Of a DNA stretch of 64,000 bases, positions 1,358 through 34,741 are shown in pieces. The stretch's first letter is position 1; every line of letters begins with the position of its first letter. The notes below the pieces were generated by a model. It saw nothing but the letters and a program-made list of their open reading frames with translations, was not told where the DNA came from and made no database searches. The stretch is from contig NC_057919.1 in NCBI RefSeq assembly GCF_018873765.1, positions 71,799,984-71,863,983 of the forward strand. The letters run 5' to 3'. Origin of the DNA: Telopea speciosissima (Eukaryota; Streptophyta; Magnoliopsida; Proteales; Proteaceae). Position numbers and translations under genes: made by a program.

Positions 1358-4300
1358 TTATAGTCCGGGCGCATCTTGATTTTCATCAACATCACCGTGC
1401 TTCCTAATCAAGTTCTTGGATGATGGCAAACCAGCTACTGCATCTTCCTCGATTCCACATTCGTTTGTTCCTCTCCTGATCATGAAGTAACCATCCTGAA
1501 AGCGCACAAACAAAAAGTTAGTACTTGAGACTCGTATACAAAAATGTTAGCCACTAAACACAGCAGTCCCTGCAAATGTGAGGCAGCTAGCGGATGTTGC
1601 ATCAGCAATTCAACACAGTGGGCTTGCAGTGTAAAGCAGTGGGACCCACTGTAATGAGCGACTGAGCAGCATAGGGTCAGCATTCCCGACTACTGTAACA
1701 GTTACCAATATAACATTTTTCATATCAAGGAGCAGAAGGAAACATACATCACCCCAACTTCTATTCCACTGGTTTGCAAGAAGCTGCAACACACAAAGTC
1801 AAATAAAACTTAGACCCATAAATAAGCTGCGTTGTTTCATATTTTAGAAGGCGATGATTAGGAAAATACCCAATAATCTTCCCCATCCTCACTGGTTCCC
1901 CATCCAATTAGCTTCACTGCATGGCCTCCCATGACGTCTCCCGTAACGTGCTTGTAAACCCCTGACCTATAGTGAGCAAAATCCTGCAAATAGAAAAGAA
2001 AGCACGACAATCAGGAAAATTGACACTAATAAACATAAGTTGGCCTCTAATGTACAACAACGCCAGAAAGAAGAAGAGTGTCGAAATTAAAATATAAAAT
2101 ATAGCCACTAGTTTAAAAGAACACGAAGATATAAAAGAAATTCAATCATCATAAAAATGAAATATCAAGGAATAAGAAAAGTTTGGAGTCCTGTTAGAGT
2201 AGGCAAATTCCCACCAGGACTGCAGAGTTTCCCAGAGGATTGTGAGATTATTTTCTTCGCATCAACTAATTGATACTTTAGAGAGCAAGAGATGCAGATA
2301 CTTTTCACGTCACAGGTTCATTAGCATGAAGGATTCAATAAATCAAGTGAAGGAGCTTTCAGATTACCTCGTAGACAGTGAACGAAACCTCAACAGGCCC
2401 ATTCTTATAGACCTCTGCCATGATATCATAAGGATTGGAATTGATTCTGTAGGTATTGACACTGAAATGCTTCACTTCCCACCACAGCTGGTTCTTATCT
2501 TCACACTTCTTTTCACACTTAGGAGTTGGATATGCAGGTTCACAACCAGGGTGAGAGCAGCCAACATCATCGAAGTATGGGTCACACTGCCAGATGAGAA
2601 ACCATTACTTGAGCTATACACTAAGACCATGGTAAGGGTGTAAGTTCTGTACCTCTTCAGTAACAACACCATGTTGAACAAAGTACTGCCATGCATAGAT
2701 AGGATATCCCCCATCACAACCATCTCCACACATAAAGCCGCAGCATGCCAAGAGGTCATTAACAGACAGTGAAATATTCTGCCATGCAGGACAAAGGATT
2801 GAAGGTGTAAATGAAGGGAAGAAATAAATTTCCAAATTCTGACCTCTAAGGAAAGGAAGGTACCATGCCAAAATGGATGCAAAACCGATCGGATAGAGAT
2901 TCCACAGCACCAAAAGCCCAACAAGATCCACAGTGCCCCTGCCACATAATACCAAGATTGGTTAAGCACCATAATTATACATTTGGCCAAATAAAAGTTA
3001 TAGGAGTGGGAACCAAGTTACCTGATCTTTCAATTGTAAAGATGAAGGCACGCCCAGATGGAGACAAGGTAGTGGAGAAGGTCAGTCTCTCATTTAATAA
3101 ATTCTAAACTAACGAGAGGCAGAACAGGTTAACTGACCAAGTATTCTCCCAATTGTGATACACTGAGGCCAAGCTGTCCTCGCATCAAACTCCTTTGGCA
3201 ACTTCAACGAATTTGTATGAGTAATAACAGGGAAATCCTTCAAATCATACTTTGGTGTTGGTTTCACTCCAAGTAGGTGCTTGAATTGGCCAATCTACAC
3301 AGCAGAAGTTCAGTGGCCACAAGGTGTATAATAACGCTTAGATCAGGGGTTTTTTTCTTCTAGAGAAACATGGAAAAAAAGAAGATTATAAACAAGGTTC
3401 TGCTTCTTGAGTACTCACGGTGTAATTATAGAAGCGAGGATTCATGGCAGCTTCCCATCCACTGTGATTGGTATTTATCTGTTGGATGATTGACTCCTGC
3501 TTTGACAAAGTGAGAACCTGAAATTAGTTGATAAAAGCAATACAGGCTAAAACAAAGAATTAATGCATCAGGTGAAAAGTAAAGTACCTGAAGAATCTCA
3601 GATCTAGATCTAATTGTAGGAAATAGTTTCACCCCCACCACCTGCAGTTTTACATCACTGATTAAGTTCTAAAAATAAAAGTCAGGATTATTTATTTTTA
3701 AAAAAGTAAAAATTCATGACTTAAGAAGTTGAAAAGATCAAAGGAAACTTATGGACTTCCCATGAATTGGAATTCTTTGCTGGGCAGCCCATAATGTCCA
3801 GTTCACAAAATGTCTGAGCATTACAAGCAAGTGGCTGCCCCCAAAACAGGTAACTTATTTCGCACAAGAATAGATGTTCCTAAGAAAAGAGATTTGAGGT
3901 GTTTCCTGATCCATTTAGAGGTGTTTTCTCCTAAACAAGCTTAACCATCATTTTGAAAAGCATCTTTGTTTCCATAGTTGTCAAGATGTCCAGGCGCCTG
4001 ATGAGGTTTACTAAGCTGAAAGAAAACAAACACTAGAAACCTACTAGAAACCAGAAAATGAACCAGAAAACTATGAATATGGCAGAAACTAAATATGATT
4101 AGAACTTGCAAACCATAAAATCTGATGGGACCGAGACTAATCTATATTAGAGGTCTTAATGGGGTGAGCATGTGGTTAAAATATTAAAGCAAACAGACTG
4201 TTAAGACTAGGAGATACAAACATGGAAAGAAAATAGAAACTAAGAAAAACCAGAAAATAGCAAGTGAGGATAACTTGAATAACTCTCAATCCACCAGTGT

Positions 4301-7300
4301 GATGGTACTCAAGTTAGAGTTGAATGGAGTAGAAGGGGAAGGGAATTAGCCAAAGCTCAGCCCAATCTGATGGTTAAATATTCTTAAAACAGAGATTAAA
4401 CTTCAGACTCATATGCTGTCAAATAACCCTATCACAGACATGAAACAACACTCAAAATAATAGTAGATAGAAAGAACTTGAAGAGCAAGACTAAAGGATT
4501 AATCAAACACACAAAGGAATTCTGATATCACCTAATAGGAAGCCACGAGAGTGATAGAAACCTGCTGGAAAAAACTGCAGAACAGTAATGGAAGAGAAAA
4601 AAAAAAAAAAAAAAAAGAACATACCCAGTACATGAGGCTCCCACTACTGCGGGGTCTGGGGAAGGTCATAATGTATGCAGGCTTACCCCTGCTTTGGCAG
4701 AGAGGCTTTCCAGACTCGAACCCGTGACCACTTGGTCACAATGGAGCAACCTTACTGTTGTACCAAGGCCCGCCCAGTAATGGAAGAGAGAGAAGAGAAA
4801 AGGAAAAAGAAGGGATGAAGGGGATATAACCAAAGGCTTCAACACCTGTGGCCTGCCGAAAAGAAAGGAAGAAGGGGATATGACCAGAGCCTTCACCACT
4901 TATGGCCTGCGGGAAAGGATTTTCACCACCTTGGGTTGTACTCGCTTCACCACAAGAGCTACTCTCAGCATCACCACTGAAGAGAAGACATTCAATTGAT
5001 CAAAGCCAAAATCATGGGTTAGTGTGCCGCATCTCCTTTATTTATAATAGCCAATGAATTGATTACAAGAATAGAAACTCTCCTTGCTACATGACTGCCA
5101 ACCATGGTTCGAGAACTTGGTTTCGCCCAGCCAAAAAACCAAGTTGGGCCGAGATCTCAGTGAGTTGGTGCACTTTTTTTTTTTTTAAACTCATTTGATG
5201 GTTTCGGTGGGTTTTTGACCTAGTTTGATCATGAAACTTGATATACAGCCTATTTTGGGTCATTTAAACACAATGGCATTATCAAATTTTCCAAAATCAA
5301 AATCCAAATAGGAGTTCGCCTTTGGACCCTAGGTTGGTAGGCTACGATGTACTAAACTACTAATAGGTCTTATTCTACACATAAGTTAGTAATAGAAAGC
5401 AATCAAAGTATACAATTAATGTAAAACAACTTAATTACTTAAATAAGCATTAAAAATGTGAAAGTGTAAAATACATCAATCTTAACATATATCTCTATGA
5501 TTCCAAGCCATAGTTTCGAAGCAAGTTAGCCAATGTATGTGACACATAGGCTTCCCATGTCATAGTGCTGCTGAAGCATTGCACGTACTCTTCCATTTAA
5601 TACATAAAAATGTTGTCATCAACAACTATCCGAAGGAACACTATCCTAGGGTAGGGAAGAGGCAGTTGCGATGAGATTGATCCACTGCTACTGCCATCAG
5701 GGTGTTGAACTACCATCGGCGCAATCCGGCGAGTTTTCTGTCAAAAAATGGGATCAAATCCAATTTTTTCAAGTTTCTTGGAGCTTCACTGTCGAGACAG
5801 CTGAGAGCATCAGGACCAGTCGAGATCTCGATTGGTCTCGGTCGAGTTAAAGCATAACTTAAAAGGGGGTTTGGTTCCGTCTCAGTCGAACCGAGATCTC
5901 GACCGATACAATGTAGTTTTGCATTTTGCCTTCCATCTCGTCTCGCCTATTGAAAATAGCGAGATATTACCGAGATCTCAGCGAGTTCTTGTTCCATGCT
6001 GCCAAGTAAATACTAGGATGGAATCCTTCAAGAGAATCCATTGCTTTTACATGCAAAACAAAAAGTAACAAAAATAGAAACTTTTATTTAGTAACGATCT
6101 TAACCACAAAGTAACTCACAATTCATTAAATGGAAATAGAAACTATTAGAAGATATTCCCAGCTCCCGAATCTCCTCCCATGAAAGCTGGCTTCACGGGC
6201 CCACAGAATCTTCATATATCTTCTGGAAATACACTCCACAAAAGGGCCTGTGGGGCCCACAAAATCTGTCAAGAATCTCCCCCAATGTTGTAGGTCGATG
6301 GCCACATTATGGGAACCGAATATGATTCTAAGTATGACAGGATATGGTCCTTAGATATAACCAGAATAAGGGCCTGAATACTTAAGTCGATAGGCAGAAA
6401 AGAGGCTTGGCTGGGCTGGTTAAATCTTAATCCAATAGGACTAATTAGGGGCCTATTTGGGCTGGCCTTGTACTGCATCAGCTTTCCCCGGCTTGAAGAA
6501 ACTCGACCTCAAGTTTTAGTAAGTCGAGGGATCAACTGTGTATAATGGATGTCCAACTTCAGTCCATACAAGTACTCTGGTAGCACCCAATAGCTAGGAA
6601 TGTAGTTCTCAAGACGTGGCCTTCTTTACTAAAAAAACTTAATGTGTTCCACTTCAGGTTCAGCTTCAATTGTGATGAGTGTTCCGTAGAATCTTCCGGA
6701 AATATAAAGTCCGATGGGTTGAGTTGACAATCCTTTATTGACTCAAAAACTTATCATTTATTCCTTCCCATTGACCAGCTGGTATGGGAGGAGTTCTATC
6801 TTCCCTCAACCACCTACTAACAACCTAATCAAATAGGGTAATCTCCTATCTTGTGCAGGCTATAAAAAGGAAACTCCTTAATTGCCTTAAACACTAAATA
6901 GAAAAAGGAATAAAAGTCCTAAACTGAAAGGAAACTATATCCATTCGACATGTCTCTGTAGGTGTCCTAATCTGACCATGAAACTGAATTAAGACAACTT
7001 ACAATATGTCTGGACTTATAAAGTCCCTAATCCAGCCAACTACACAATAAAAGAATAATAAAATAAGATGAAAATAAACTGCCAAGGACTACTCCATGAT
7101 CTGAACTGCTGACTGGACAGATTAGATAAGATTCCAGGTTCATTGAACCTAGACAATTAAACTAGAGGATTGAACCAACAAACTGGTTTGGAAGTTAATC
7201 GAAATAACCAACCCAAACCAAACCAAGTCTGCATTATTTGGTTTATTTTCTCCATGAAACCTAAGATTGGTAGGAGGTTTATGAGAAAGGAGACTGCCAA

Positions 7301-10300
7301 AGATATTTGGGATACCGTCTCTAAGACGTTTGACCGAGTGGGTAACTCAGCTAAGGTCTACCAACTCCACCAGAAGGTCATCACAATGAAGCAAGGTGAC
7401 AGGACTATTTCTGAATTTTATCACTCAATTATTGGTCTTTGGAAGGAGTATGATCATTTTAGAGACCTCCAACTGTCCAACCTCGAGGACAAAGCAAAGG
7501 TATATAGAAGACTTGAAAAGGAACATGTTCTGATTCTACTTGGCGGGCTGAACCCAGAATATGAGCCAATCTGGGTGCAAATTTTCAGCTGGTCACCTCT
7601 TCCATCTTCAGATGAAGTATGCAGTTACTTGCAAAGTGAAGAGATCCAAAGGAGAGCCATGGACACTATACCATCATTGGAAAGATCTGCACTTTCCTTT
7701 AGCTACCATGGAGATTGACATGTTGGAGGAAGATGCCAAGGGCCACACCGTGGAGATGACGGAGATAGACTCAAATGTGACCATTGTGGGAAACCTGGGC
7801 ACACCAAGGAGAGGTGTTGGGTGCTTCATGAGCATCCCCCTATAATTGCACCTACTAGTATGTGTGGTGGCAGGAGAGGGGGAGCCAGAGCACACATCGT
7901 GATGGCTGAAACTGAATATATGGAGTATCCATCTGGACTACAAGCAGATCACAATTCTCTCAGAAGGGAAGACCTTATAGCCTTTAGATGGATTACGTCA
8001 TATTTGGAGGCTCTTCTTCCTCTACCACAGTGCTAGATCCTTCTGCTTCAGTCCTGCAAGTCTCTATATCAGCCCCTTCCACTGCTCATTGGGTCATTGA
8101 CTCTGGAGCCTCCAATCAGATGACTGATTATGTCTCAGTGTTACGATTCATATTCTGCCTGCTCTGGTAGGGATAAGGTTACAGTTGGTGATGGTTCCCT
8201 TTCCTCTATTTCTAATGAGGATAGTGTTAACGGATGACCAACTGACCCGTGACTCGGACTAAATACATTAGAGTATCTAGGTTCATTATGCACATGTTCC
8301 AAGTGTTGATTATGTTAGGATTTATTTCCAGATTTGTAATGATCTATATGATCATAAATAAAGCAGTGGCCTCTGTCTATTCGATAAGCCAAAATCATTT
8401 TTTTCTCTCGTCTTTCTCAAATTGGTATCAAAGCTCAATCCCCTTGGGATTTTTTAGAAGCCGCCGCCGCTACCACCATCGAGGCATCGGCCTCTTGGTT
8501 AAGCATGGTTAACTGCACATGTGCTAATGCATGTCACACCATGCAAACCATTGCTGATCACTAACCACCACCATGCTACCTACCATTGCCGTCACTACCG
8601 CCGCCATCACCGCCACCCCCGTGGCCCTTTTTGCCCTCCTTTAAGGCTTCTTCTTTGCGCCGACCACGTTGGCCTCCCACTGTTGCTGCCTGCTGGCCCT
8701 GACTGCTTGCACCAGGCCTTCCAGCCCCTGCCGATGCCTCCGCCTGGATCTGCCCAGGCCTGTCGCCCTGTTTCGGCCACAACCTGGACTCATCTGTTTC
8801 TGCCGCCTCTTCCAGGCCCTTGGTCGATCTCTTTAGGCCCTGTTGGCCCTTCAGCCAACCTGCCCAAGTACCGCCAGCCTTTTGCTGCCTTGTGCCGACT
8901 TCCCTTAGCAATTTTTTCTGGTCAAAATGCTCGCTGGCAGTTAGTATATCATTTTATGTGTGACCTTTTTTCAGGTATTTCCAATCCAACTTCTTGTGCT
9001 TATTTTTCTTGGCGCTATGACAGAAGAATCTGTTACTTCCCTTGGTATTGGGAGTGGCCCCTTGAATCGACTTGGCACTCCACACCATTCTCTTCACAGC
9101 CAGGACCCACCAAGTTGAATTGACTTAATTATCTCGCGTGGTAACGTGCTTGTCTCTTTACCATTCGCGGTAATCATTTCTCAGGGAACCTAACTGGTGA
9201 CACCCCTATGCTTACAGAGGATTCTGCCAAGGAAAATTGGTTAGCAAATGATGCCTTGATTATGTCCTCCTTGTTGAATTCTATGGAACCAGCCATCAGT
9301 TAGAGCTTTGTTCTGTTGAAGTCTGCGAAAGAACTATGGGAAGCTGTTAAACACACTTATGGACAGACCAGTAATTATGCTCAGATCTATGAGCTTCGTC
9401 GCCAGGTTCGTGACACCACACAGAAAGAATTGTCCATTTGTCAATACCTGCATAATATTCTGCCCTCACTACTTTATGGCAGCAATTGGACTTCTATCAC
9501 CTTGTTGCCATGACAAGCCCTATTGATGCAGCCACGTTTGCTAAAAAACGTGAAATGGAACGGGTGTATGATTTCCTTACTGGTCTCAACCCATAATATG
9601 ATCCGATTTGGCTTCAAATCTTGAGCAAGCGACTTCCCTTCACTTCTTGAGGCTTACAATATGATTCAGGATGAGGATCGTCGTTGTTCTGTTATGATGC
9701 CTACTGTTGTTCCCACTCGATCTGCCCTTGTCACTACTCCACAGCTCTCTTTATCTGTGGATACTGCTGATACAATTAACAACTCTGGTGCTACTCATGA
9801 ACCTGTGAAATGCGACTACTGTGGTCGTCCTCGTCACACTCGGGAGACCTGTTGGAAACTCCATGGTCGTCCTAAAGGAGGCGGGAAAGGAGGAAAATCT
9901 GGTTCGACTCAACCCCAGGCTCACTTGACTGAGACTACTGATGCTTATACTAGCTCCTCTATGTCTGCCGAACAACTTGTGACCCAGCTCCAACGTATGA
10001 TGACTCAGCTTGGTCCTGCAGCTTCGATCAAGGAACCCCTTACCACGTCTGCCTCTCATTTAGCCCAGTCAGGTATTTTTCTCACTTCATCTGAGACTAG
10101 CCCATCTTGGCTCCTTGATTCTGGGGCATTAGACCACATAACCAGCACTTCGGATCTTCTTCATACCTATTTTCCTTGTTCTGGTAAGGACAAGGTCCGG
10201 GTTTCTGATGGCTCCCTTTCCTCTATTTTTGGTAAAGGCACTATAACCTGTACTCCTACCATTTCTTTATCCTCTATCCTCCATGTCCCTAATTTATGTG

Positions 10301-13300
10301 CTAATTTGCTTTCTATTTCTAGTCTCACTACTGAGCTGAATTGCAGTGTTCACTTTTATTCTACTCGCTATGTATTTTCAGGATCTAATGACAGGAGCAA
10401 TGATTGGATATGGTAAAGTACGGGATGGTCTCTACTACTTAGATCAAGGATCTCCACCTTCCTCTCTGCCGGTCTTCACTAATATTCGTACCCGAGCAGA
10501 GAGCACTCTTACTCAGCTCCAGCAAGGGCATTGTCGTCTTGGACATCCCTCTTATCATGTTTTACGTCATTTATTTTCTTCCTTAGTTAAACATTGGTCT
10601 TTGGATGATTTACATAGTGATGTTTGTGAGTTTGCCAAACATACCAAGTCTTCTTACTTTCCTAGTGACAATAAAAGTTTGATTCCCTTTTCTATCATAC
10701 ATTCAGATTTATGGGGCCCTTCTAAGGTTATTGCTAGGGGTGGGTTTAAATAGTTTATTACCTTTATTGATAATTGTACTCGCTTAACCTGGGTTTATCT
10801 TCTTCAAACTAAATCCGAGGCTTTTTCTTGTTTTCAATGATTTCACAATATGATTCTCATTGTGTTTAATGCCAAAGTCCAAGTCTTACATAGTGACAAT
10901 GGCACTGAATACATTGATGGATCCTTTCTACAGTAACTTGATTCTCATGGCATTCTTTCTCAAACTTCCTGTGTCCGGACCCCTGAACAAAACGGCATCG
11001 CAGAGCGAAAAAATCGCCACCTTCTTGATGTTACTAGGGCATTAATATTTACAAATCATGTCCCTAAATTTTATTGGGGAGATGCAGTTCTTGCTGCTGC
11101 CTTTCTTGTAAATCAGGTTCCTTCTAGTGTCCTCCACTTCAAAACTCCGGTTAGCCAGCTTCCGGATCTTTCCCTTGCTTCTCACCTTTCCCCCAAGATA
11201 TTCGGTTGTGTCTGTTTTGTGCAAGACTCAACCCCTTCTTGTTCCAAGCTGGATCCTTGGGCAATTCGTTGCATCTTCTTAGGGCACTCCACCTCCCAAA
11301 AGGAGTACCAGTGCTATCATCCTCCCATTCGGAAGCTGTTTGTTACCATGGATGTCACTTTTCATGAGACCGAACCCTATTATTAGTTAGCTCTTCAGGG
11401 GAGCATCAACGAGAGGAACAGATTCCTTTTACTACCCCTCTTGTGATTGATATTGTTCCTCTTCAAGGGAAAAGGCCTATTCCAAGTGGTAAGGACATCA
11501 TCACTTCTAAATCATTTCATCCTGTTGTATTCAAGTTGGGCATGCGAGATAACTATGCACCAACTTGAGGGGGAGTGTTAACGGATGACCCAGTGACCCG
11601 TGTACCGGACCCAGATACATTAGAGTGTCTAGGTTCATTATGCACATGTTGCACATGTTGATTATGTTAGGATTTATTTCCAGATCTGTAAGGATCTATG
11701 ACTATAAATAAAAGGGTGGCCTCTGCCTATTCGATAAGCCAAAATCATTCTCTTCTCTCGTCTTTCTCAACTGATAATGTTCAAGTTACCTCTTCCATTT
11801 CTCTTGATTTTGTTCTTCATGTTCCTAACTTGGCCACTAACTTACTATCTATAAGTCAATTAACCAAACCCTTGAATTGTTGTGTCACGTTTCCTTCTCA
11901 TTTTCTTTTTCAGGATTTGGTGACAAAGAGGATTATTAGCAGTGGACGTGAAGAGAAAGGGCTTAACCTTCTTGAACCCCAAACATCTTTTTTACTATAA
12001 CTCAATCTTATGTGTGTGGGTGTAGTGACAATAGCAATGTTGATTCTGTGATGCTTTGGCATCAACACTTAGGCCACCCCTCTTTTAGTGTTATGAAAAA
12101 ACAGTTGCCACATTTTTTTTCTTCTATTTCTAATTCCCATGTATTTCATTGTGAACCATATTTGTTTGTTAAACATTGTCGTTCTTCTTATCCTTATCAT
12201 AGTAATAGATCAATTGTTCCTTTTCATATTATGCATTTTGATGTTTGGGGACCTGCTCCCACTACCTCTTTATTTGGCTATCATTATTTTGTATCGTTTG
12301 TTGATGATTGCTCCCACACCACATAGACCTTTTTGATGAAACATAAAAGTGAGGTCTATGATGCTTTTAAGAATTTCTATCAAATGATTTGCACTTAATT
12401 TAATACCATAATTAAAATTGTTCGCTCTGATAAAGGGGGGGGAGTACATGTATGGTGGACTCCAACACTTTTTTACCAATAATGGCATTGTCCATCAGCT
12501 TGCTTGTGGTGACACACCCCAACAAAATGGGGTAGCTGAGACTTGAGAGGAAAAATCATCATTTATTGGAAGCCACTTGGAGTTTGCTATTTGGCATGCA
12601 TATCCCCAAGACTTTTCAAAACTTGATTGTTTGATTGACACTGGATGGTTGGAGCTTTTGAGGCTTAGATTCGATAGGGTTAGGGATTACAAACCCTTCC
12701 CTAAATCCTCCTGTGATTTGAGTCTCGGATAAATAGTTGAATTGATCGTACAGAGCCTGTTTTCATCATGAGGAATTACGTCACTTCTTCAAAATTGCAT
12801 TTAAGACCTATCTTTTGAGTATTACCCTAAAGCCCTCGTATTTTAAACTATATTTTTGTTTGAACGCATCTCCACATTACTTTCCAGAATGAGCTCTTCC
12901 CTTTAGAATTAATTCCTTATTTATCTCACATTCAGTTATCATACTCATAAGGCCAGAACTATTCTCAGAATTTACATAATTGCCACTCAAATTGAATATT
13001 TGAGTTTTTGGATGGGCACACAGCGACCCATAATCAGGGTCTAGGAAACCGAGATTGCATTACCTACCCAATACAATTGGGGAGATTAAGATGGCATCAT
13101 TGTATCAGAAGATCAAACATCAACGGTTGCACAAGACTGAGTAAATGGAATCTCTACTCTCTATCCTCTACTTGCTACCTCTCTCTTTTGCTGTTCTTTG
13201 CAGGATATGATCTAAGTCTCCACATCTCCTCGTGGGCCCACACATAGCAAGAGAGTACCTCATCATTTTCAGCAATCTCAGCTAGTGTTACCCTTTTGCT

Positions 13301-16300
13301 ATATTAAGGATAGATTCCTTAAAACATAATTTCAGAATTGACTACTGATAGCAGATCTTAATGGGCTCAAAACAGTAATCAAAAGTGCATCAAAACACCG
13401 ACAGATTTCAGCAATAATATAAGGATACTAATCTGACACAGAAAATCAAAATTAGAGTAAAACTAGAAATCCAACTGGAAGTATGACTCTAAGAAATCAG
13501 CACAAAAATCAATTTTCGAAATCATGGGGTTGTTAAGAATACTATCCAATTATCAAATATGAAGTCAGATTTGGAATCACAGATGGAAACAATGGAGAAA
13601 TTGAAATTCCAGCTACTAGTATGCATAATAACATAATACAACTCATCCCAATCAATGGGGTCGGCTACATGGATCCTTTCCCTTCAGTCAGCTCTATTCA
13701 CATACTTGTTACAAGGCCTAAGCTATGCATGTCTTTCCTCACACTTCTCTTAGAGTCATTTTAGGCCTACCCGTCTCCTTTAGCTCCTTCAATCTGAATC
13801 AAATCACTCCTCTGTACCGGAGCATCTAAAGGCCTTCGTTGCACATGTCCATGCTACCTCAAACGACTACCTCGCAGCCTATCATGTAACGGAGCTATTC
13901 CTAATTTAGTTCTAATTTTTTCATTCAATATTTTATCCTTTCTAGTTTTACCACTCATCCATCTCAACATCCTCATCTCAGCTACACTAAGTTTATCTAT
14001 ATGTTGTTTCTATACTACCCAACATTCAGCTCCATAAATCATTGTCAGTCGTATGAATTTCCTATATAATTTTCTTTTTATTTTTAAAGGAAATCGTTGG
14101 TCACAAAACACTCCGGACGTACCTCTCCACTTCATCCATCCTATTTTAATTCTTTGTGCAAAATTATCCTCTATTTCTCCTTCTTTATTTAAGATTGAAC
14201 CTAGATGCCTAAGGTATTCACCAACCTGCACAATGACAGAGTAGAAACTTAAAATTACCAACCTGATTTGATGATGGATAGATTTAAAAAAGGATAGAAA
14301 AGTAGATGGATATCAACCAAGCATTAATATAGTCCTAGATAGGTAGAAGACCAACTAGGAGCCAGTACACCAGGATCTGATATGAACTGGTGGTCCGATT
14401 AGGTCAAAATATGGTTTTAGGTTAAAGTTAGGGTTAGGGTTTGAGGTGTTGGTTATGCTAGGCACGTGTAGGGGAGTCTATCAGTGAAGGTGCTGACATG
14501 TTTTGATGAGCGGAAGTGTGTAGACTAGAATGGCAGCAGGATAGGTTTACGGGTTTCGTGTTTTTGGAAAGTGTAATATGAGGGAATCTAGGGTTTAGAG
14601 TGGATGTCTGGGGAAATCCTTTGGATCGAGTTTCCCTTTAGGGCAGACGAATATTTGAACCAAAATTGGGGCAGAACTGTTGGCTGGTTTGGTCTGTGGG
14701 AAAATTAGGTTTTGGATTTTAGTATGGAGATGGAGAATCTGGGGTTTGAATGGATAAAAGGGGGCAGAAGTGTGGATCGAGTGTAGGGGCTAGGCAAAGG
14801 GTGTTGTGGTTTAAATTGGTGAATTTCTGATGGAGGAATAAGTCTGGACAGAACTGAGAGCGTGGAGAAAAGTAAAAAACACAATGGGGAATGTTAGGGT
14901 TGGGCTGTGAGAGGATTAGAAGAAGTATGGGGTTGGGGATACTTCCGTACTTACTTGCAGTAGCAGGGAGTAATTGGCACTTTGGCAGCCGCTTGTAATG
15001 GCAGTAGCTTGAGTAAAAATTGGATCTTGGACAGAAACTTGGAGTAGAACTTGAATACGAATCACACGGGCTTCACACCGCAAGGTGTTGATTGGATCAC
15101 ACACAAATCCCACCAGCTTTGATCACAAACAAAGCAGTTCATAAAGAGAAGAAAAGTTGCAGAAGCTTGCAAGAGCAGATTTTCATAAAACAGTGAGGTC
15201 AAGAAGAGGATTTGGGGGCTGATGATCTCTGTTGGACTGGGCCTACTTTTTCTTGGAGTAACAAAAGGGTTGGAAATTCCCACATTGATTGTAAACTTGA
15301 TCGTGTTATTGTCAATGAAGCTTGGCTTGCCTCCTTCCCTTCCTCCTTTGCCACCTTTGATACCCCTGGAATTTCTGACCATTGTCCTATTTCTTTATCT
15401 ATCCAGCCTTACACTTCCTTTGGCCCCAAACCCTTTAAATACTTTGACATGTGGTCATCTCACTCTACTTTCTTAGACACTGTTAAGGATGCTTGGGACA
15501 AGCCTGTTCAAGCATTTTCTTTCCCCCCTTATTGCTTTTGCTAGGAAACTCCACAATGTGAAAGCAGCCCTCAAAATCTGGAACACAAATACTTTTGGTA
15601 ATATCTCCCAACATGTCTTGGACTGCAAGGATAAGTTAGCTTCTCTCCAGTTGCAGCTCCAATCCGACCATCTTAATGTTCAACTTGCTATTGATGAAAA
15701 GGCTGCTTCTCTTGAGTTATCTTTGCTGCTCTCCCAAGAGGAAAGTTTCTTAAGGCAGAAATCTAGGATTAAGTGGTTGGAGTTAGGGGACTCTAACTCA
15801 ACCTACTTCCATCGATCCATGAAATCAAGATCCAATTACAACTCCATTTTGCAGCTTGTGACTTCGGATGGTTCCTCGGTTACTGGTGTGAATGACATTA
15901 AACGTATGGCTGTGAACCACTTCAAGGATCTCTTCAATGGTACTTTGGATGATGCTGGCCCAATTCCAAACAATTTGCTAAACAAATTCAGTCCTCCTGA
16001 GCTATTGGAATCTCTCAGGGCCATTCCAACTGAGGCAGAAATTAGCACTGATATCCACTCTTTCAAGCTGAACCGGGCTCCTGGGCCGGATGGATTTAGT
16101 ATGGGTTTTGTAATAGAACAGAACCCTAGGCTAATCTGCAGTAGAGAACAAAGAAGAAGAAGAAGAAAATAGAGAATAAAGAGAAGGAGAAGAGAGAGAT
16201 CGACAAAGAGTATGAAACTCTCCCCCGATTTGTGATTAATCAAATCGTGGGGAGGGGAGTCTTATTCATAATCTCAGCAATAATTAAAATACAATCAATT

Positions 16301-19300
16301 GCCCCAAAATACCCCTAAGACAATAGAAATAACTAGAAACATAAACAGGACTAAAATACCCCAGAATATGGTAAACATAAAACGATAGATCTTAACACTC
16401 CCCCTCAAGCTGGAGCGTAGACATCACCAAGATCCAGCTTGGAACAACCACTCAAGAACTGAGGTCGAAATAGAGCCTTCGTAAACATATCTCCAAGCTG
16501 AAACTGGGAACGAACAAAAGGGGTAGTAATCAGCTTCTTCTGAACAGCATCTCGAACAAAATGACAGTCAACTTCAATGTGGTTGGTTCGTTCATGAAAA
16601 ATGGGGTTGTTGGCAATATAGATGGCAGCTTGGTTATCACAATACATCTCCATGGGCTGATCACTGCAATAACCAAGCTCATGAGCAAAAGAACGAACCC
16701 ACATCAATTCTGCAGCTGTATGAGCCATAGCTCTGTACTCAGCCTCTGCACTCGAACAAACAACAGTGGTCTGTTTCTTGTTCTTCCAAGTAACCAAATT
16801 ACCTCCAAAGAAAGTGCAATAACCTATAGTCGATCTTCTATCTCCATCAGAACCAACCCAATCAGCATCAGAGAACCCAACAATGCTGGTATGACCATGG
16901 TGACAATAAACCAGCCCCTTACCTGGAGCACCCTTGACGTAGCGTAAAATGCGACAAGCAGCATCCCAATGTATTTGCTTAGGTGTCTGCATGAACTGAC
17001 TAACAACACCCACAGCAAAGGAAATATCAGGACGAGTAACTGTAAGATAGATAAGTTTACCGACCAGGTGTCAGTACTGATGTGGGTCACTAAATTCCTT
17101 GTCATCAGCAGAAGAACCAAACTTAACATGGGGATCCATAGGAGTATCAATAGGTTTGCAACCCAACATTCATGTCTCATCAAGTAAATCAAGGACATAC
17201 TTCCTCTGAGATAAGCTAAGACCTCGAGAACTGCGAACAACCTCAATACCAAGAAAGTACCTAAGATTACCCAAATCCTTGATCTGGAAGTTATCATGTA
17301 AATACGTCTTCACCTGTGCAATTCCAGAAGCATCATTACCGGTAACAATAATGTCATCGACATAGACTGCTAAGATGACCACGTTAGACCCCTGACGCCA
17401 AACAAAGATAGAGTGGTCAGAATAGCACTGAGAAAACCCACAACCAGCCACAACACTGCTGAGTTTATCAAACCACGCATGGGGAGACTGTTTCAGTCCA
17501 TAAATTGCCTTATGAAGGCGACAAACCCGGACACTATCCTCCCACTGAGCAACATAACCAGGAGGTTGCTCCATGTATGCTTCCTCCTGGAGATCACCAT
17601 ATAAAAAAGCATTCTTCACATCCATCTGAAATAGAGGCCAGTCAAGATTGACGGCCAGGGAAAGCAAAATACGGACAGAATTTAACCGCGCAACAGGAGA
17701 GAAGGTCTCGAAGTAGTCGACCCCATAGGTCTGTGTAAACCCTTTGGTAACCAAACGGGCCTTGAGCTGCTCCACAGTGCCATTTAGATTGTACTTAACC
17801 GTGTACACCCAACAACACCGAACAAGATCTTTATCAGCGGTAGATCAACCAATGATCAGGTCTTACGAGAAAGCAAGGCATCCATTTCCACATCCATAGC
17901 AAGTTTCCACCCAGGGTGGGACAAGGCAGGCATATAAGAGGTGGGAAGAAAAGTAGAATGTAAAGCAGCAGCAAAAGCACGTTAACAGAGTGGAAGATGA
18001 GAAACAGAAACATAATTAGCCAATGGGTAAAGAGGATGCTGAGTGCAAGTACGAGTACCTTTTCTCTGTGCAATGGGGAGATCATCAATGTCTAAAGTTG
18101 GATCCGCAGGCAAGGAGTCAGCTGGTAGCGGTGGAGGGGCAGCCACAATAGTTTGAGATGGCAAAGATGGCGGCTGTTGTTGGGCACGGCGCGTGTAGAC
18201 CTTAACGGATGTGGAATCAAGATTTGCAATTAATGGAAGAGGAGGAACAGGGGCAGCAACAACACTATCGCCACCACCAGTATCAAACTCAAGACCAAGG
18301 GCAACAGAAGATCCAACAAAATAAGGGGAGTTTTCAAAAAAGATATCGGCGGAAACAAACTGCTTGCGAGAGACGGGATCAAAACACCTATAACCCTTCT
18401 GGGTACGAGAATAGCCAAGGAACAAATACTTGATAGCCCTAGGAGATAATTTATCAAGACCAGGGCGAAGCACATGAACAAAACATTGGCAACCAAAGAC
18501 ACGAGGGGGAAAAGAGAAAACAACCTGGTCAGGAAAAACAACATTAAAAGGAATTTGATTATTAAGAACAGAGGAAGGCATACGATTAATTAAGAAACAA
18601 GCTGTTAATACCGCATCTGCCCAATAGAACTTGGGGACATTCATATGAAACATCAATGACCTAGTAATGTCTAACAAATGGCGGTTTTTGCGCTCTGCCA
18701 CACCATTTTGCTACAGTGTGTAGGAGCAACTAGTTTGATGAAGGATGCCATTGTCAGAACAAAATAAGGAAACCTCACGTTGGATTATTTCTAGGGCATT
18801 GTCAGTGCGCAAAATTTTCAAATGAACACCAAATTGAACACGAATTTCATTATAAAACTGGCTGAAAGTAGATACAAATTCAGATCGATCCTTCAAGAGG
18901 TACAGCCATGTCATACAAGAATGATCATCAATAAAACTAACAAAATAAGAAAAACCTAACCGACTCTTGACCCTACAAAGACCCCAATTATCATAATGAA
19001 CTAATTGAAACAAAGAAGTATTCCTAGACTGTAGACTCGAAGGAAACACAGTACGATGATGCTTGCCAAGCTCACAAGCTTCACACTCAATGCGGGAGAT
19101 AGATTTGCAGCTAGGAACAAGATGACGCAGCTTGGATAATGAAGGGTGTCCTAGCCGATAATGCCAATGTAAAGGAGACACAGTAGAAAAAGTAGCAACC
19201 GCTGCCGTAGAAGTAGATGCCAAATCAAAATAATAGCGGCCACCCTTCTCATGCCTGCCACCAATCATCGTCTTTGTTGCAAGATCCTAACTGACACAAT

Positions 19301-22300
19301 GAGAAGGATGAAAGGTTATAGAACAATTCAAAGACTTAGTTAATTGACTAACAGATAGAAGATTAAGAGGAAGCTTAGGTACATGAAGAACATCAGATAA
19401 AGGGATGTCCCCATGACCAGTAACAGGCATACAGGACCCATCGGCAATAGAAATCCGAGATGGGACAGCGGACTGAGTAAATGAGGAAAATAAATTGGGC
19501 TTACCAGTCATTTGGGAGGAGGCACCGAAGTCAATGACCCACGGAGAAGGTGAGGAGGCAAGACATGCAGTGGATGTACCTGGATGAGCAAGAACAGCTG
19601 TAGATGTAGATGAAGATGCCTCAAGTTGTTGAACGCGTTGTAAGAGCTGAGAAACCAGGTCATTGGAGGAACTACCACTATCGGTGGAAGACCCATGTGC
19701 AGTGTCAGGAGGACGCACAGAATCAGCCTCTCCATTAGAAACTGCAGCGTTTGCAAACTGCTCTCGTGCCCATTGTGGTTTGCCATGTTTCAGCCAACAC
19801 TTGTCAATAGTGTGGTTAGGACAACCACAATGAGAGCACCACCGAGAACCACTATCACTAGAAGACGAACCAGCAAGGTGAGAACCAATTCCATGACCAC
19901 TAGAACCAGCCCCACGTCCACGACAGGATCCAGAACCACGACCTCGAGAAGAGGTACCACCACCACGACCACTCCCTCCAGTAGAAGTGAAGAGGGCAGA
20001 ATTATGTTTAGAGACAGGGGCTGAATCAGATTTCACCACCGTAGGAGAAACAACTCTCTGGATTCGACAATATGCTTCATTCATAGATGGAATCTTCTCA
20101 TCAGCCAGTAATTGGTTCTTGACAAATTGAAGAGTAGAGTCCAATCCAGAGAGAAATTTAGCAACCAAAAATTCAGATCGTTGGGATTTAATCACAGAGG
20201 CATCAGTAGATATAGGCTGGTACACATTGAGTTCTTCCCACATCCCCTTCAGTGAACTGTAATATTCGCCAAGAGACTTTCCTTCTTGCTTGAAAGAGAA
20301 AAACCTCTCATACAAATCATAAATTCGGGACAGATTGGTATCTTGAGAATAGCTCTGCTTGAGTTCTTCCCAAACTCCCTTGGCAGTTTTATGAAACATA
20401 ACATTAGAGGCAATAGAAGGTTCCATGCTATTCCAAAGCCAACACAGAAGGGTGGCATTTTCTGCCTTCCAATCATCATATTTGTCATCTGTAGGAGCTG
20501 GTGGTGTCATAGTGAGATAAGATATCTTCCAGCAAGCAGTAACGTAAACTTCAAAGGGTTGAGACCAAAGAAGGTAGTTGGAGGCACCATTTAACTTAAT
20601 GGTAATAATCTGAATATCCGTAGGAGGCTTAGATTCAGCCATGAGACCAAGTAAAAACTGTGAAGTAATTCCTGGGATGGATAGAGCGCAGCAACAGCCA
20701 GCAATAAAGAGGAATAAGGCACTAAATTGATTCCAGCCAAAACCCTGATTAGGGTAAAAATCGACAATCTGCAGAGGAGGCTAAAACAGCCCAATATGTG
20801 ACCAATTATTGGTGTAAACAATCACCAAAATAAAGAGAATAAAGATCCCCAAACCAGCAGCCAATGTGAAGAAGAATTCCCAGGAGAAGAGAAAAAATCG
20901 ATTTCACAGGGTTTTGAGAAATCGATTTCTCAGATGAAAATAAACACCACTTCAATTTGCAGTAATCTTGGACAGCAGCAGGTGCAAAACACGATCAGTC
21001 TTCAGCATATCAGGGAACCGTAGTCCTTCATTAGTGTATGACTAAGGTTCAGACAAGAGAATACAGCATTTGGTTGCTGTGGACCACGGCAAAAGAGCAA
21101 GGAGAAGGAGAAGCCTTCAAAACCGCAACACCAAGGAGGACTGTGGATCAGACTTAGGGCTCTGATACCATGTAACAGAACAGAACCCTAGGCTAATCTG
21201 CAGTAGAGAACAAAGAAGAAGAAAAAGAAAATAGAGAATAAAGAGAAGGAGAAGAGAGAGATCGATAGAGAGTATGAAACTCTCCCCTGATTTGTGATTA
21301 ATCAAATCGTGGGGAGGGGAGTCTTATTTATAATCTCAGCAATAATTAAAATACAATCAATTACCCCAAAATACCCCTAAGACAATAGAAATAACTAGAA
21401 ACATAAACAGGACTAAAATACCCCCAGAATATGGTAAACATAAAACGATAGATCTTAACAGGTTTCTTTCTTGCTTCTTGGGAGATCATCAAGGAAGACC
21501 TTATTAAAGCTGTCAAAAGTTTCTTCCTTAATCCTAGCCAGATCAAAGGAGTGAACCATACGTTTCTTTGCCTCATTCCCAAGGAGGAGGGAGCTTCAGT
21601 GATGTCGGACTTCAGGCCTATTGGCCTGTGCAACCTTATATACAAGTTCACTGCTAAAGTCCTTGCCTTCAGGCTCAAGACTGTTGTGGATCTTCTTGTT
21701 AGTGAAAATCAGTCGGCCTTCATTCCAAGGAGAAATATCTCGGATAACATCCTCCTTTGCAATGAGATTGTTAGAGGCTTTGAGAGAAAAAACCATTCCC
21801 CCAACTGCTCTTATGAAGATTGATATTCATAAAGCCTTTGATTCTCTAAGATGGGACTTTATTGGTAAGGTGTTGTCTAAGATGGGATTCCCTCCGGTCT
21901 TCACTCATTAGATCCATTGTTACATATCCACCCCCAGGTTCTCTGTGCTTGTTAATGGTAGCCCTGCAGGCTATTTTGCTTCTTCTGTGGGTATTCGTCA
22001 AGGGTGCCCCCTTTCTCCCTACATCTTCACTTTAGCTCTGGAAGTTTTATCTCGGGATATCCAAATTTGTACAGATCAGCAGCTCATTACCCCCATCCCC
22101 AAGTGCAAAGCCCTCAAGCTATCCCATCTGGCTTTCGTAGATGATCTCATGATTTTCTCCAAGGCTTCCATTACCTCCTTTGAGGCTATTATGTATTGCT
22201 TGCAGCAGTTCCAAGTGCTCTTGGGCCTTTAGATTAATCCAACTAAATCCCTCCTTCTCTTGGCTAGGGTCTCAGATTTGGAGAAAGCTGCTCTGGTAGA

Positions 22301-34300: not shown

Positions 34301-34741
34301 AACTAGGTTATAATAATCCAAATCTGAATTGTATATCTCAACCAAACGTCCCCCTTAAGAGTGATAAAGCTATTTTAGACAGCCATTAGAGAAGCCCTAT
34401 AGCATTAAATTCTTAATGGAAAGGGTTCGACCTTTCCCTTTAACAAAAAGTTAACGAATTATGACAACGACGTGTACTTTACTACTTCCAGTGGAGAAAA
34501 GGCATAAGTAACGAAAAATGGAATGGGGACATAGTCAGCAGTTATCAATAGGATTTGATGGATAAGGGAGTAAACCAGGAAGAAACCATATCAGAACCAA
34601 ACATCCAAAATAAAAGGATCATGAAATAGGAGGTAGAAGGGGAAGGAATAAATGATATTCATTGACAAATACCTGATGCAGAAACGGCGAAATGAATCCC
34701 AAAAGTATGAGAACAACCAAATATGGCGAAGTCGCCGCCAT
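1358..34741 (-). CDS. Cathepsin B-like cysteine protease (C1A family), 11 exons, 31-kb first intron
   Basis: This is a papain-fold endopeptidase of the secretory/vacuolar pathway. The exons in transcript order are 34673-34741, 3588-3641, 3419-3496, 3138-3294, 3022-3026, 2864-2938, 2653-2778, 2368-2586, 1870-1983, 1748-1783 and 1358-1495. All have GT/AG borders and join in frame to 356 residues, the usual length for plant cathepsin B. Residues 1-23 are a signal peptide. The propeptide runs to about 98, and the mature enzyme starts near LPKEFDAR. Catalytic residues are Cys127 (GHCGSCWAF), His282 ([11 protein letters not shown]) and Asn303 (ANQW), with the oxyanion Gln at 121. The insert with [14 protein letters not shown] (from exon 8) corresponds to the occluding-loop region in its plant form, without the animal His pair. 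Sequons are present at Asn51, Asn65 and Asn147. Exon 3 could instead start at 3517, adding seven residues in frame; the 3496 start fits homologues better. No disabling change was seen. Confidence 0.93.
3022..3026 (-). CDS. 5-nt microexon of the cathepsin B-like gene
   Basis: Exon 4 ends after a single G (phase 1) and exon 6 starts cleanly at GGG CAC TGT (Gly-His-Cys). The family needs Asp-Gln between them. On the minus strand the five bases ATCAG lie between an acceptor (ttgaaag) and a donor (GTAACT), with flanking introns of 83 and 111 nt. Adding ATCAG gives GAT CAG, exactly the conserved Asp-Gln of DQGHCGSCW. Without it the frame shifts and a stop follows in exon 7. No other splice choice I tried restores the motif. 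Confidence 0.85.
3973..4012. repeat. Half of a hAT-type MITE (relative of the one at 50628)
   Basis: The stretch beginning catagttgtcaagatgtcc and running through aggcgcctgat repeats the left arm of the complete 138-bp element at 50628-50765. The right arm is missing, so this is a remnant. Confidence 0.4.
4598..4774 (-). mobile_element. tRNA-derived SINE (Au-type), intact with target duplication
   Basis: Read on the minus strand, the element starts in the tRNA-like head with the internal promoter B box ggtcacgggttcgagtc. It continues through the ccagaccccgc...gggagcctc...actgggta body typical of plant Au SINEs, and ends in a run of T/A next to 4598. A 15-bp direct repeat, cagtaatggaagaga, flanks it at 4583-4597 and 4775-4789, showing retrotransposition by target-primed reverse transcription. 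It sits in the first intron of the protease gene. Confidence 0.88.
5094..6007. repeat. Dispersed repeat rich in gagatctc motifs, imperfect terminal inverted repeats
   Basis: Both ends resemble each other in inverted orientation (tgccaaccatgg...cgagaact on the left; agttcttgttccatgctgcca on the right), and the motif ccgagatctcagYgagtt recurs inside. No target duplication is obvious. The interior has no recognisable coding capacity, so a decayed non-autonomous DNA element is the best guess. Confidence 0.35.
6100..6479 (-). repeat. Probable LTR end of a gypsy-like element
   Basis: On the minus strand a purine-rich stretch (about 6480-6515, ttcttcaagccggggaaagc) is directly followed by tgatgcagtacaaggcc, which looks like a polypurine tract meeting an LTR start. 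The rest of the element is not recognisable. This call rests on layout alone. Confidence 0.3.
7255..7830 (+). pseudogene. Gag of copia element A
   Basis: Capsid-like helical region of a copia Gag. It is open from the left edge to about 7718 and then shifts frame before the CX2CX4HX4C zinc knuckle. The N-terminal part of Gag is missing upstream. Gag would bind element RNA and form the particle; this copy cannot, given the frame change. Confidence 0.65.
8225..8419 (+). repeat. 5' LTR of copia element B
   Basis: Runs from tgttaacgg to tttctca and is paired with 11576-11769. The primer-binding site begins 3 nt downstream. Confidence 0.85.
8521..9660 (+). pseudogene. Leader and broken Gag of copia element B
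   Basis: A C-rich, open but low-complexity stretch (about 8570-8930) is followed by gag-like segments. Near 9316 the peptide [20 protein letters not shown] is typical of copia Gag. Stops and frame changes separate the pieces, for example around 9300 and 9510, so no full Gag can be read. Confidence 0.5.
9661..10416 (+). pseudogene. Gag C-terminus and protease of copia element B
   Basis: One open stretch of 251 residues carries the nucleocapsid zinc knuckle [14 protein letters not shown] at about residues 51-64. The aspartic protease active-site motif DSGA is near residues 152-155, and the pre-integrase motif [17 protein letters not shown] comes towards the end. Asp and Gly of the active site are kept. 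It ends by frameshift, and the integrase part continues in another frame from about 10346. Confidence 0.7.
10346..11390 (+). pseudogene. Integrase of copia element B, interrupted by stops
   Basis: The HHCC-like [17 protein letters not shown] region is followed by the catalytic core with [19 protein letters not shown] and [19 protein letters not shown] (about 11000). In-frame stops occur near 10751, 10838 and 10935, with a frame change. This would be the DDE integrase of a copia element; here it is a relic. Confidence 0.7.
11576..11769 (+). repeat. 3' LTR of copia element B
   Basis: Preceded by the polypurine tract gagggggag and ends tttctca, immediately before the resumption of element A coding sequence. 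Confidence 0.85.
11770..12630 (+). pseudogene. Pre-integrase and integrase start of copia element A
   Basis: After element B the older polyprotein continues with [20 protein letters not shown], then the zinc-binding HQHLGHPSF segment near 12065 and [10 protein letters not shown] near 12300. A stop interrupts near 12326 and another near 12543, where GVAE should continue into ERKN. Coding similarity ends about 12630. Confidence 0.65.
12631..13624. other. Intronic spacer without recognised features
   Basis: Ordinary AT-rich sequence. Short open frames (for example 13008-13247) show no recognisable domain. It probably belongs to an unrecognised repeat or to the original intron. Confidence 0.4.
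13625..14250 (-). mobile_element. RTE-type LINE, 5'-truncated copy 1
   Basis: The minus strand encodes the C-terminal part of an RTE-clade reverse transcriptase, with [38 protein letters not shown] and [10 protein letters not shown]. It ends in the conserved 3' tail catgtagccgaccccattgattgggatga (read on the minus strand). Only the last several hundred bases of the element are present, which is usual for RTE copies. Confidence 0.75.
14251..15208. other. Intronic spacer without recognised features
   Basis: G-rich on the plus strand, with a short gttagggttagggttt stretch near 14415. No coding region was recognised. It continues after the L1 element at 23845. Confidence 0.4.
16109..16397 (-). 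repeat. 3' LTR of copia element C
   Basis: The left-hand LTR on the plus strand; the element reads right to left. It is adjacent to the polypurine tract at 16398-16408. Confidence 0.92.
16405..17808 (-). pseudogene. Reverse transcriptase and RNase H of copia element C
   Basis: The RT domain shows [20 protein letters not shown], the catalytic region [12 protein letters not shown] (YVDD pair) and [14 protein letters not shown]. RNase H shows [28 protein letters not shown] and MYCDNQAA with its acidic residues kept. A stop near 17170 and another near 17080 separate the RT thumb from RNase H. The end DLGDVYAPA is the usual copia polyprotein terminus. Confidence 0.85.
17982..19268 (-). pseudogene. 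Integrase of copia element C
   Basis: The zinc-binding region [17 protein letters not shown] and [14 protein letters not shown] are followed by the core with [17 protein letters not shown] and LRTDNALE. A stop then falls just before [13 protein letters not shown], and the C-terminal GKG-like part continues with [20 protein letters not shown]. Two frames/stops (near 18708 and 19287) break the polyprotein. A linker rich in Pro and Ala leads towards RT. Confidence 0.8.
19287..20642 (-). CDS. Gag and protease of copia element C (451 residues, open)
   Basis: This is the longest open frame in the window. It starts [20 protein letters not shown] with the Gag N-terminal region, then the UBN2-like core ([20 protein letters not shown]). 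A Gly/Arg/Ser-rich linker follows, then the zinc knuckle [14 protein letters not shown] at about residues 273-286 and the protease segment [12 protein letters not shown] near 376. The active-site motif is normally D-S/T-G; here the middle residue is Phe, so the protease is probably inactive. The frame closes at 19287 just before the pre-integrase region. Gag coding capacity is intact. Confidence 0.82.
   Translation of the reverse strand: MAESKPPTDIQIITIKLNGASNYLLWSQPFEVYVTACWKISYLTMTPPAPTDDKYDDWKAENATLLCWLWNSMEPSIASNVMFHKTAKGVWEELKQSYSQDTNLSRIYDLYERFFSFKQEGKSLGEYYSSLKGMWEELNVYQPISTDASVIKSQRSEFLVAKFLSGLDSTLQFVKNQLLADEKIPSMNEAYCRIQRVVSPTVVKSDSAPVSKHNSALFTSTGGSGRGGGTSSRGRGSGSCRGRGAGSSGHGIGSHLAGSSSSDSGSRWCSHCGCPNHTIDKCWLKHGKPQWAREQFANAAVSNGEADSVRPPDTAHGSSTDSGSSSNDLVSQLLQRVQQLEASSSTSTAVLAHPGTSTACLASSPSPWVIDFGASSQMTGKPNLFSSFTQSAVPSRISIADGSCMPVTGHGDIPLSDVLHVPKLPLNLLSVSQLTKSLNCSITFHPSHCVS
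21171..21460 (-). repeat. 5' LTR of copia element C
   Basis: The right-hand LTR on the plus strand. The canonical copia primer-binding site is directly adjacent at 21159-21170. Confidence 0.92.
21551..23727 (+). pseudogene. Reverse transcriptase and zinc-finger tail of the L1 LINE
   Basis: RT blocks appear in the expected order. The catalytic Asp pair lies in FVDDL (about 22136). Breaks are seen near 21800 (frame change), 21911, 22232 and 23010-23235, each a stop or shift. The tail reads as a zf-RVT domain followed by an RNase-H-like remnant. Active copies would encode ORF2p for target-primed reverse transcription; this one is dead. Confidence 0.75.
23845..25497. other. Intronic spacer without recognised genes
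   Basis: AT-rich sequence with a short (AC)n near 24831-24845 and a C run near 24870-24880. Phrases such as tttatttatattggcc near 23860 look LTR-like but could not be paired. No coding region is seen. Confidence 0.4.
25615..26886. mobile_element. 1.27-kb insert in the gypsy 5' LTR, probably LTR-derived
   Basis: The insert is bounded on both sides by gtagtt (25609-25614 and 26887-26892). It contains a ctatatattg TATA-like stretch near 26040 and a downstream C/T-rich leader. No coding capacity is recognised. It could be a solo LTR or a small LTR element, but terminal TG/CA is not clean. Confidence 0.45.
26975..27929 (+). mobile_element. RTE-type LINE, 5'-truncated copy 2
   Basis: Encodes the end of an RTE reverse transcriptase. 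It starts at [20 protein letters not shown] and continues with [47 protein letters not shown] and [12 protein letters not shown]. After a frame shift near 27440 come [16 protein letters not shown] and GRPKKS. The 3' tail catgtagccgaccccattaa ends in (gtt)n at 27910-27929. It sits within the gypsy 5' LTR and therefore arrived later than the gypsy element. Confidence 0.85.
28224..29508 (+). pseudogene. Gag and protease of the gypsy element
   Basis: Starts with a coiled-coil-like [20 protein letters not shown]. The gag core follows in shifted frames ([52 protein letters not shown]). The zinc knuckle near 29090 reads [14 protein letters not shown], slightly expanded. The protease motif near 29320 is [13 protein letters not shown], where D-S/T-G is usual, so the Gly is lost. 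Frame changes are seen near 28480, 28600 and 29020. Confidence 0.75.
29521..31181 (+). pseudogene. Reverse transcriptase and RNase H of the gypsy element
   Basis: RT begins with [20 protein letters not shown] and continues with [49 protein letters not shown] and [20 protein letters not shown]. The catalytic aspartates near 30320 fall across a frame break. RNase H shows [17 protein letters not shown] and [18 protein letters not shown], with [10 protein letters not shown] following. Breaks are seen near 30069, 30326 and 30850. Confidence 0.78.
31250..32573 (+). pseudogene. Integrase and chromodomain-like tail of the gypsy element
   Basis: The zinc-binding region is decayed near 31300-31440. 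The core shows [32 protein letters not shown] and, after a frame change near 31700, [19 protein letters not shown] and [20 protein letters not shown]. The tail holds [14 protein letters not shown] and then [11 protein letters not shown] followed by a stop and [17 protein letters not shown], which ends at the polypurine tract. Confidence 0.78.
32574..33014 (+). repeat. 3' LTR of the gypsy element
   Basis: Intact 441-bp LTR, uninterrupted, and the reference for recognising the three 5' LTR pieces. Confidence 0.88.
33083..34085 (-). mobile_element. RTE-type LINE, 5'-truncated copy 3
   Basis: The minus strand shows [15 protein letters not shown] near 33960, [20 protein letters not shown] near 33800, [17 protein letters not shown] near 33600, [17 protein letters not shown] and [14 protein letters not shown] near 33450. 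The conserved tail and a (gttt)n run at 33095-33112 follow. It reaches further 5' than the other two copies, including the QGSALNP block next to the RT active site. Several frame changes. Confidence 0.82.
34086..34672. other. 5' end of the first intron
   Basis: AT-rich, no recognisable element. It contains the splice donor at its right edge. Confidence 0.4.
34673..34741 (-). CDS. Exon 1 of the cathepsin B-like gene: start codon and signal peptide
   Basis: The ATG lies at 34739-34741 on the minus strand and opens a 23-codon exon, [20 protein letters not shown] plus three residues. This is a textbook hydrophobic signal peptide. The exon ends in CAG followed by the donor GTATTT at 34672, in phase 0, and the next exon at 3641 also starts in phase 0. 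The fit in phase and content links this exon to the protease body 31 kb away. No competing coding exon with a signal peptide lies nearer. The A/G context at the ATG is acceptable. The exon-to-body link is inferred from phase and domain order and has no transcript support here. Confidence 0.8.

Follow-up and report, generated by a model that had tools for sequence, protein, structure and literature searches.

Can a stretch of only five bases be an exon in its own right, and does its inclusion decide whether an active enzyme is made? These questions are raised by a cathepsin B-like gene of 11 exons that lies on the minus strand within a 64-kb window of the genome of Telopea speciosissima (waratah; Proteales, Proteaceae), the window being the whole stretch of DNA that was analysed. 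Unless stated otherwise, positions below are those of the window, and the gene features are read on its minus strand.

Gene structure

With the five bases included, the eleven exons splice to a coding sequence of 1071 nt that encodes P0001 without a single difference. This predicted protein carries the NCBI name 'cathepsin B-like protease 3 isoform X2 [Telopea speciosissima]'. Exon 1 (34673..34741, 69 nt) encodes the signal peptide, ends in phase 0 and translates exactly to P0001. The other exons were placed by splices matching the same protein. Exon 2 (3588..3641, 54 nt as in isoform X2) and exon 3 (3419..3496, 78 nt) are followed by exon 4 (3138..3294, 157 nt), which ends in phase 1 with CTT G, and by the five bases of exon 5 (3022..3026). 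Exon 6 (2864..2938, 75 nt) starts in phase 0 with GGG CAC TGT (GGGCACTGT) and encodes the active-site Cys within GHCGSCW. The gene continues through exon 7 (2653..2778, 126 nt), exon 8 (2368..2586, 219 nt), exon 9 (1870..1983, 114 nt), exon 10 (1748..1783, 36 nt) and exon 11 (1358..1495, 138 nt), which includes the stop codon. The first intron (34672-3642), again set by splicing that matches P0001, spans 31,031 nt, as against 66-384 nt for the other nine.

Exon 2 has two acceptors 27 nt apart. The one at 3641 gives isoform X2; the one at 3668 would add NLISDVKLQ, and the longer form resembles the Macadamia isoform X1 (P0002).

A five-base exon between exons 4 and 6

The five bases are ATCAG, read from 3026 to 3022, with TTGAAAG before them and GTAACT after them. 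They divide the 199-nt gap between exons 4 and 6 into an intron 4 of 111 nt (3027..3137; donor GTCAGTTA, acceptor TTGAAAG), the 5-nt exon, and an intron 5 of 83 nt (2939..3021; donor GTAACTTG, acceptor GTGGCAG). The predicted mature junction reads GAATACTTG-ATCAG-GGGCACTGT, and the string GATCAGGGGCAC would mark a cDNA that contains ATCAG. The last G of exon 4 and the five bases make GAT CAG (Asp-Gln) directly ahead of GGG CAC TGT (Gly-His-Cys), and the spliced frame reads Ile-Leu-Asp-Gln-Gly-His-Cys. This bears out the preliminary description of this DNA, in which ATCAG was held to restore Asp-Gln before Gly-His-Cys-Gly-Ser-Cys-Trp.

The placement of a 5-nt microexon at 3022..3026 in that description is confirmed by the identity with P0001, which settles that the Telopea protein prediction uses the five-base exon: the match is exact with ATCAG, and the frame shifts without it. 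ATCAG is an internal exon of a length within the 1-15 nt of plant coding microexons, with AG before it and GT after it. The description had also held the gene to be probably misannotated in its genome; for the NCBI-named Telopea record this is wrong, as isoform X2 contains the exon exactly. We regard it as very probable that ATCAG is a genuine coding microexon, the fifth of eleven in a plant cathepsin B-like gene, normally included and supplying Asp-Gln before GHCGSCW.

A match by chance, with exon 5 unused and exons 4 and 6 connected by some other in-frame route, is barely credible. The gap holds seven AG..GT segments of at most 50 nt that would restore the frame, five of them free of stops, so that four stop-free segments compete with ATCAG; Asp-Gln arises from none of those four, and the databases hold the exact Asp-Gln protein for Telopea. 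When 200,000 sequences were simulated with a first-order Markov model of the 199-nt gap, 0.16% contained AG followed by A(T/C)CA(A/G) and then GT; the same pattern (AGAYCARGT) occurs four times in the whole window, counting both strands. The 12-mer GATCAGGTAACT is not special by itself: the 822.9-Mb genome matches it exactly at 62 places, so the meaning of the site comes from its place rather than its letters.

We also considered an extension of exon 4 by the GTCAG that begins intron 4, which would keep the frame with Gly-Gln; it would need a TT donor, and we rejected it. As a side observation, this GTCAG (3137-3133) and the microexon (3026-3022) differ by one base, and an aligner could put exon 5 on the start of intron 4 with a single mismatch, hiding the exon.

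Intron 4 is in phase 1 and all other introns of the gene are in phase 0, and exons 4 and 5 together measure 162 nt; exon 5 could therefore have arisen simply, when an intron was gained within an older exon and separated off its last five bases. A tandem duplication of exon 5 and intron 5 as the source of intron 4 seems very improbable. It is suggested by the two starts, GTCAGTTAACCTG and ATCAGGTAACTTG, which match at 10 of their first 13 bases, but the local alignment score of both stretches was equalled by 193 of 2000 shuffled pairs, and on this count we rejected it.

What the five bases encode and what skipping would cost

The spliced protein combines Propeptide_C1 (PF08127, E 1.8e-12) with Peptidase_C1 (PF00112, E 4.7e-68), and its best solved relatives are cathepsin B (1pbh); by both domains and these relatives it is a cathepsin B-like C1A peptidase. 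Asp-Gln stands six residues ahead of the active-site Cys, in a DQGxCGSCW motif that aligned with procathepsin B 1pbh at E 7.9e-91. The Pfam and 1pbh comparisons, like the first homologue search, used an exon model that starts exon 3 at 3517 and omits exons 1 and 2; the Pfam-tested model differs from the final spliced protein in the first 7 residues. The Gln of exon 5 corresponds to the oxyanion-hole residue; in papain, too, that Gln precedes the active-site Cys by six residues. In this gene, five bases are enough to provide a catalytic residue and to keep a conserved enzyme in frame.

Skipping of ATCAG shifts the frame and yields a 150-residue product that ends at a stop at 2761, within exon 7, as had been predicted in the preliminary description. 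This product keeps the propeptide and has no Peptidase_C1 domain by Pfam. Its stop lies 475 nt ahead of the last exon junction, and by the usual rule a stop so far upstream of that junction would mark the mRNA for decay.

The junction in other plants

The junction was compared at the protein level in 159 distinct plant proteins, drawn from the best 120 of 4158 hits and the best 120 of 2071 hits. Among these listed homologues, 121 are canonical and 38 are not; seven natural variants of ILDQG (P0006, P0009, P0034, P0047, P0058, P0060 and P0095) were counted as canonical by eye. Entries were assigned by hand to a transcript-like class when their source column named only lgn, jgi, ena or eukprot, or when they came from a 1317-base NCBI contig; contigs in this class measure 1130-2480 bases, and one entry has a TRINITY name in place of a contig. 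Canonical DQGHC is present in all 39 transcript-like entries and in 82 of the 120 others (Fisher p 5.8e-6, ignoring kinship and indicative only, the entries being mutually related clusters at 90% identity).

The 38 departures, all among the non-transcript entries, fall at exactly the exon 4/5/6 junction. They comprise a single changed residue (ILxQG) in 6, foreign residues ahead of an intact DQG in 4, foreign residues behind an intact ILDQ in 2, an insert or change that ends in QG in 8, other inserts or loss of DQ in 16, and loss of HCGSCW altogether in 2. The ILxQG cases could be real substitutions rather than artefacts. Most of the departures look like read-through of the introns that flank exon 5. 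Gly directly follows Ile-Leu in 24 of the 38, as expected from reading through G/GT at the end of exon 4, and in 12 of those 24 it is followed by Gln, as expected from GGTCAG; in Telopea the corresponding boundary is G/GTCAGTTA. The LGQGHC entries P0005 and P0080 appear to derive from the in-frame GTCAG extension described above. At the other end of intron 4, P0046 and P0151 read ..IKDQG and P0154 reads ..NEDQG, and the Telopea intron closes with TTG AAA G/AT CAG, or Leu-Lys-Asp-Gln. P0136 reads ..ILDQVTPFSGHC, like read-through of CAG/GTAAC, and Telopea intron 5 starts with GTAACT (Val-Thr). Since a GTCAG donor and a CAG acceptor can both mimic Gln, certain entries are probably wrong in spite of a correct appearance.

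Judged by their names, the garbled records, among them entries from Salix, Populus, Craigia, Coptis, Striga and Gossypium, belong to rosids, asterids, Ranunculales, one magnoliid and Nelumbo. Artefacts resembling read-through are present at the same junction in proteins of many species. Because the transcript-like entries are all canonical and the garbled records affect one junction in many groups, the exon appears to be old, and its structure is probably conserved across flowering plants, an argument that proceeds from artefacts in proteins. The expectation in the preliminary description that gene predictors miss such an exon was right for other plants and wrong for the Telopea record. PMC3991739 assigns the active-site Cys of AtCathB3 to exon 6, as in Telopea, which fits a small exon 5 in Arabidopsis. 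Plant DNA was also sought among prokaryote and viral contigs; the 24 and 2 pattern matches obtained there included no relative.

How so short an exon may be spliced

An exon of 5 nt is too short for both of its splice sites to be bound, or to hold both splicing complexes, at once. Given this constraint and the short introns on either side, intron-by-intron removal is the most likely course, and we infer that sequential removal of the two flanking introns is the likely mechanism for exon 5. The 111-nt and 83-nt introns would each be recognised as an intron and removed one after the other, probably with the downstream intron 5 going first. Skipping would be an error and not a programmed switch: the frame shifts, the protease domain is lost, and the mRNA probably decays. 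For 69 Arabidopsis microexons, PMC8831610 describes flanking introns that are likely removed sequentially, with the upstream one tending to lag.

The splice sites around exon 5 stand out within the gene. Among the 11 acceptors listed for the gene, all but that of intron 4 (..AAAG) end in CAG or TAG, and no donor other than that of exon 4 begins with GTC. An odd acceptor and an odd donor fit a slow upstream intron and demonstrate none; they would also fit inefficient splicing, a point against normal inclusion.

Is inclusion regulated?

The preliminary description went further and saw in the five bases an on/off splice switch. This found no support: one protein search recovered no skipped product, and Asp-Gln is carried by every one of the 39 transcript-like listed homologues. 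That search, with the frameshifted tail, required shared five-residue words and returned one candidate and no match at E <= 10; its sensitivity is limited, and it would miss a transcript that decays. A regulated switch, in which tissue or stress would control inclusion of the 5 nt and skipping would lower the amount of active protease through frameshift and mRNA decay, is very unlikely on present evidence. In its favour are the early stop in exon 7, so far ahead of the last exon junction, and the splice sites of exon 5, unusual within the gene. There is also a possible parallel in Arabidopsis, where cloned AtCathB1 transcripts were reported to carry frame-shifting intron-splicing events that leave the product inactive (PMC10920296, citing Porodko et al. 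2018); PMC10920296 gives no location for these events relative to exon 5. Against it are the empty search and the uniform inclusion among transcript-like homologues, both weak against rare or decayed isoforms, together with the inclusion above 0.5 reported for most coding plant microexons in PMC8831610.

It is tempting to speculate that exon 5 splicing is a conserved weak point that sets the level of active cathepsin B. The odd splice sites and a slow upstream intron would hold back unfinished or frameshifted mRNA, to be set free when cells die or defend themselves, and AtCathB1 would have lost its activity through an initial failure of exon 5. We consider this a long shot, for which the AtCathB1 frame-shifting splicing is the best lead. 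Regulated inclusion, if it exists, would add a new point of control over a cell-death protease.

Relation to known plant microexons

Our preferred reading, of an exon that is normally included, agrees with the account of coding microexons of 1-15 nt that are conserved among land plants (Yu et al. 2022, PMC8831610; MEPDB, PMC12409088). PMC8831610 counts 2398 microexons in plants, with 45 conserved clusters. Exon 5 is like the conserved coding microexons in its size and coding position, in the high conservation of the surrounding protein, in a length not divisible by three, in its short flanking introns and in the frequent misannotation in other genomes; it sits well among the conserved and mostly included microexons of plants set out in PMC8831610. 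A 9-nt microexon in the same paper offers a close parallel, a tiny exon that encodes part of an enzyme catalytic motif and whose downstream intron tends to go first. Unlike exon 5, its skipping keeps the frame. The plant cathepsin B-like proteases AtCathB1-3 (PMC10920296) belong to the same protein family and share the motif, as in Arabidopsis P0124; a feature that may set the Telopea copy apart is its 31-kb first intron.

A microexon of cathepsin B seems to have escaped mention in the literature covered here. In PMC8831610, Peptidase M1, and not cathepsin B, is the one case for which the main text gives a 5-nt phase-1 cluster, and the terms 'cathepsin' and 'cysteine' are absent from that main text, as 'cathepsin' is from the main text of the matching microexon database paper (PMC12409088). 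A term search of PMC10808074 gave no mention of cathepsin either, and no report of a cathepsin B microexon in plants was found at the level of titles and abstract openings. Exon 5 may already be included in the supplementary cluster list of PMC8831610. We therefore describe exon 5 as real, probably conserved and already part of an NCBI-named Telopea protein, and possibly catalogued before.

The practical consequence lies in annotation. About a third of the non-transcript listed homologues (38 of 120) are wrong or deviant at the exon 5 junction, and those that keep a Gln apparently taken from an intron (donor GTCAG or acceptor CAG) would pass a casual check though wrong. Correcting garbled entries would improve protease annotation, as well as the cloning and modelling of plant cathepsin B from predicted genes. 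Two predicted proteins, P0133 (Brassica carinata) and P0152 (Thlaspi arvense), have no active-site HCGSCW, the segment that adjoins the exon 5 junction.

Content of the first intron

Three long frames on the plus strand of the 31,031-nt first intron (15489-16172, 22260-23012 and 29521-30069) gave no Pfam match. A copia-type retroelement lies at 16405-20642 of the same intron, on the minus strand and in the direction of the gene, split over several frames, with gag, integrase and reverse transcriptase domains found by Pfam in four of five tested frames. Further copia-type pieces with gag and Pol_BBD matches in Pfam are present on the plus strand at 7170-7718 and 9661-10416.
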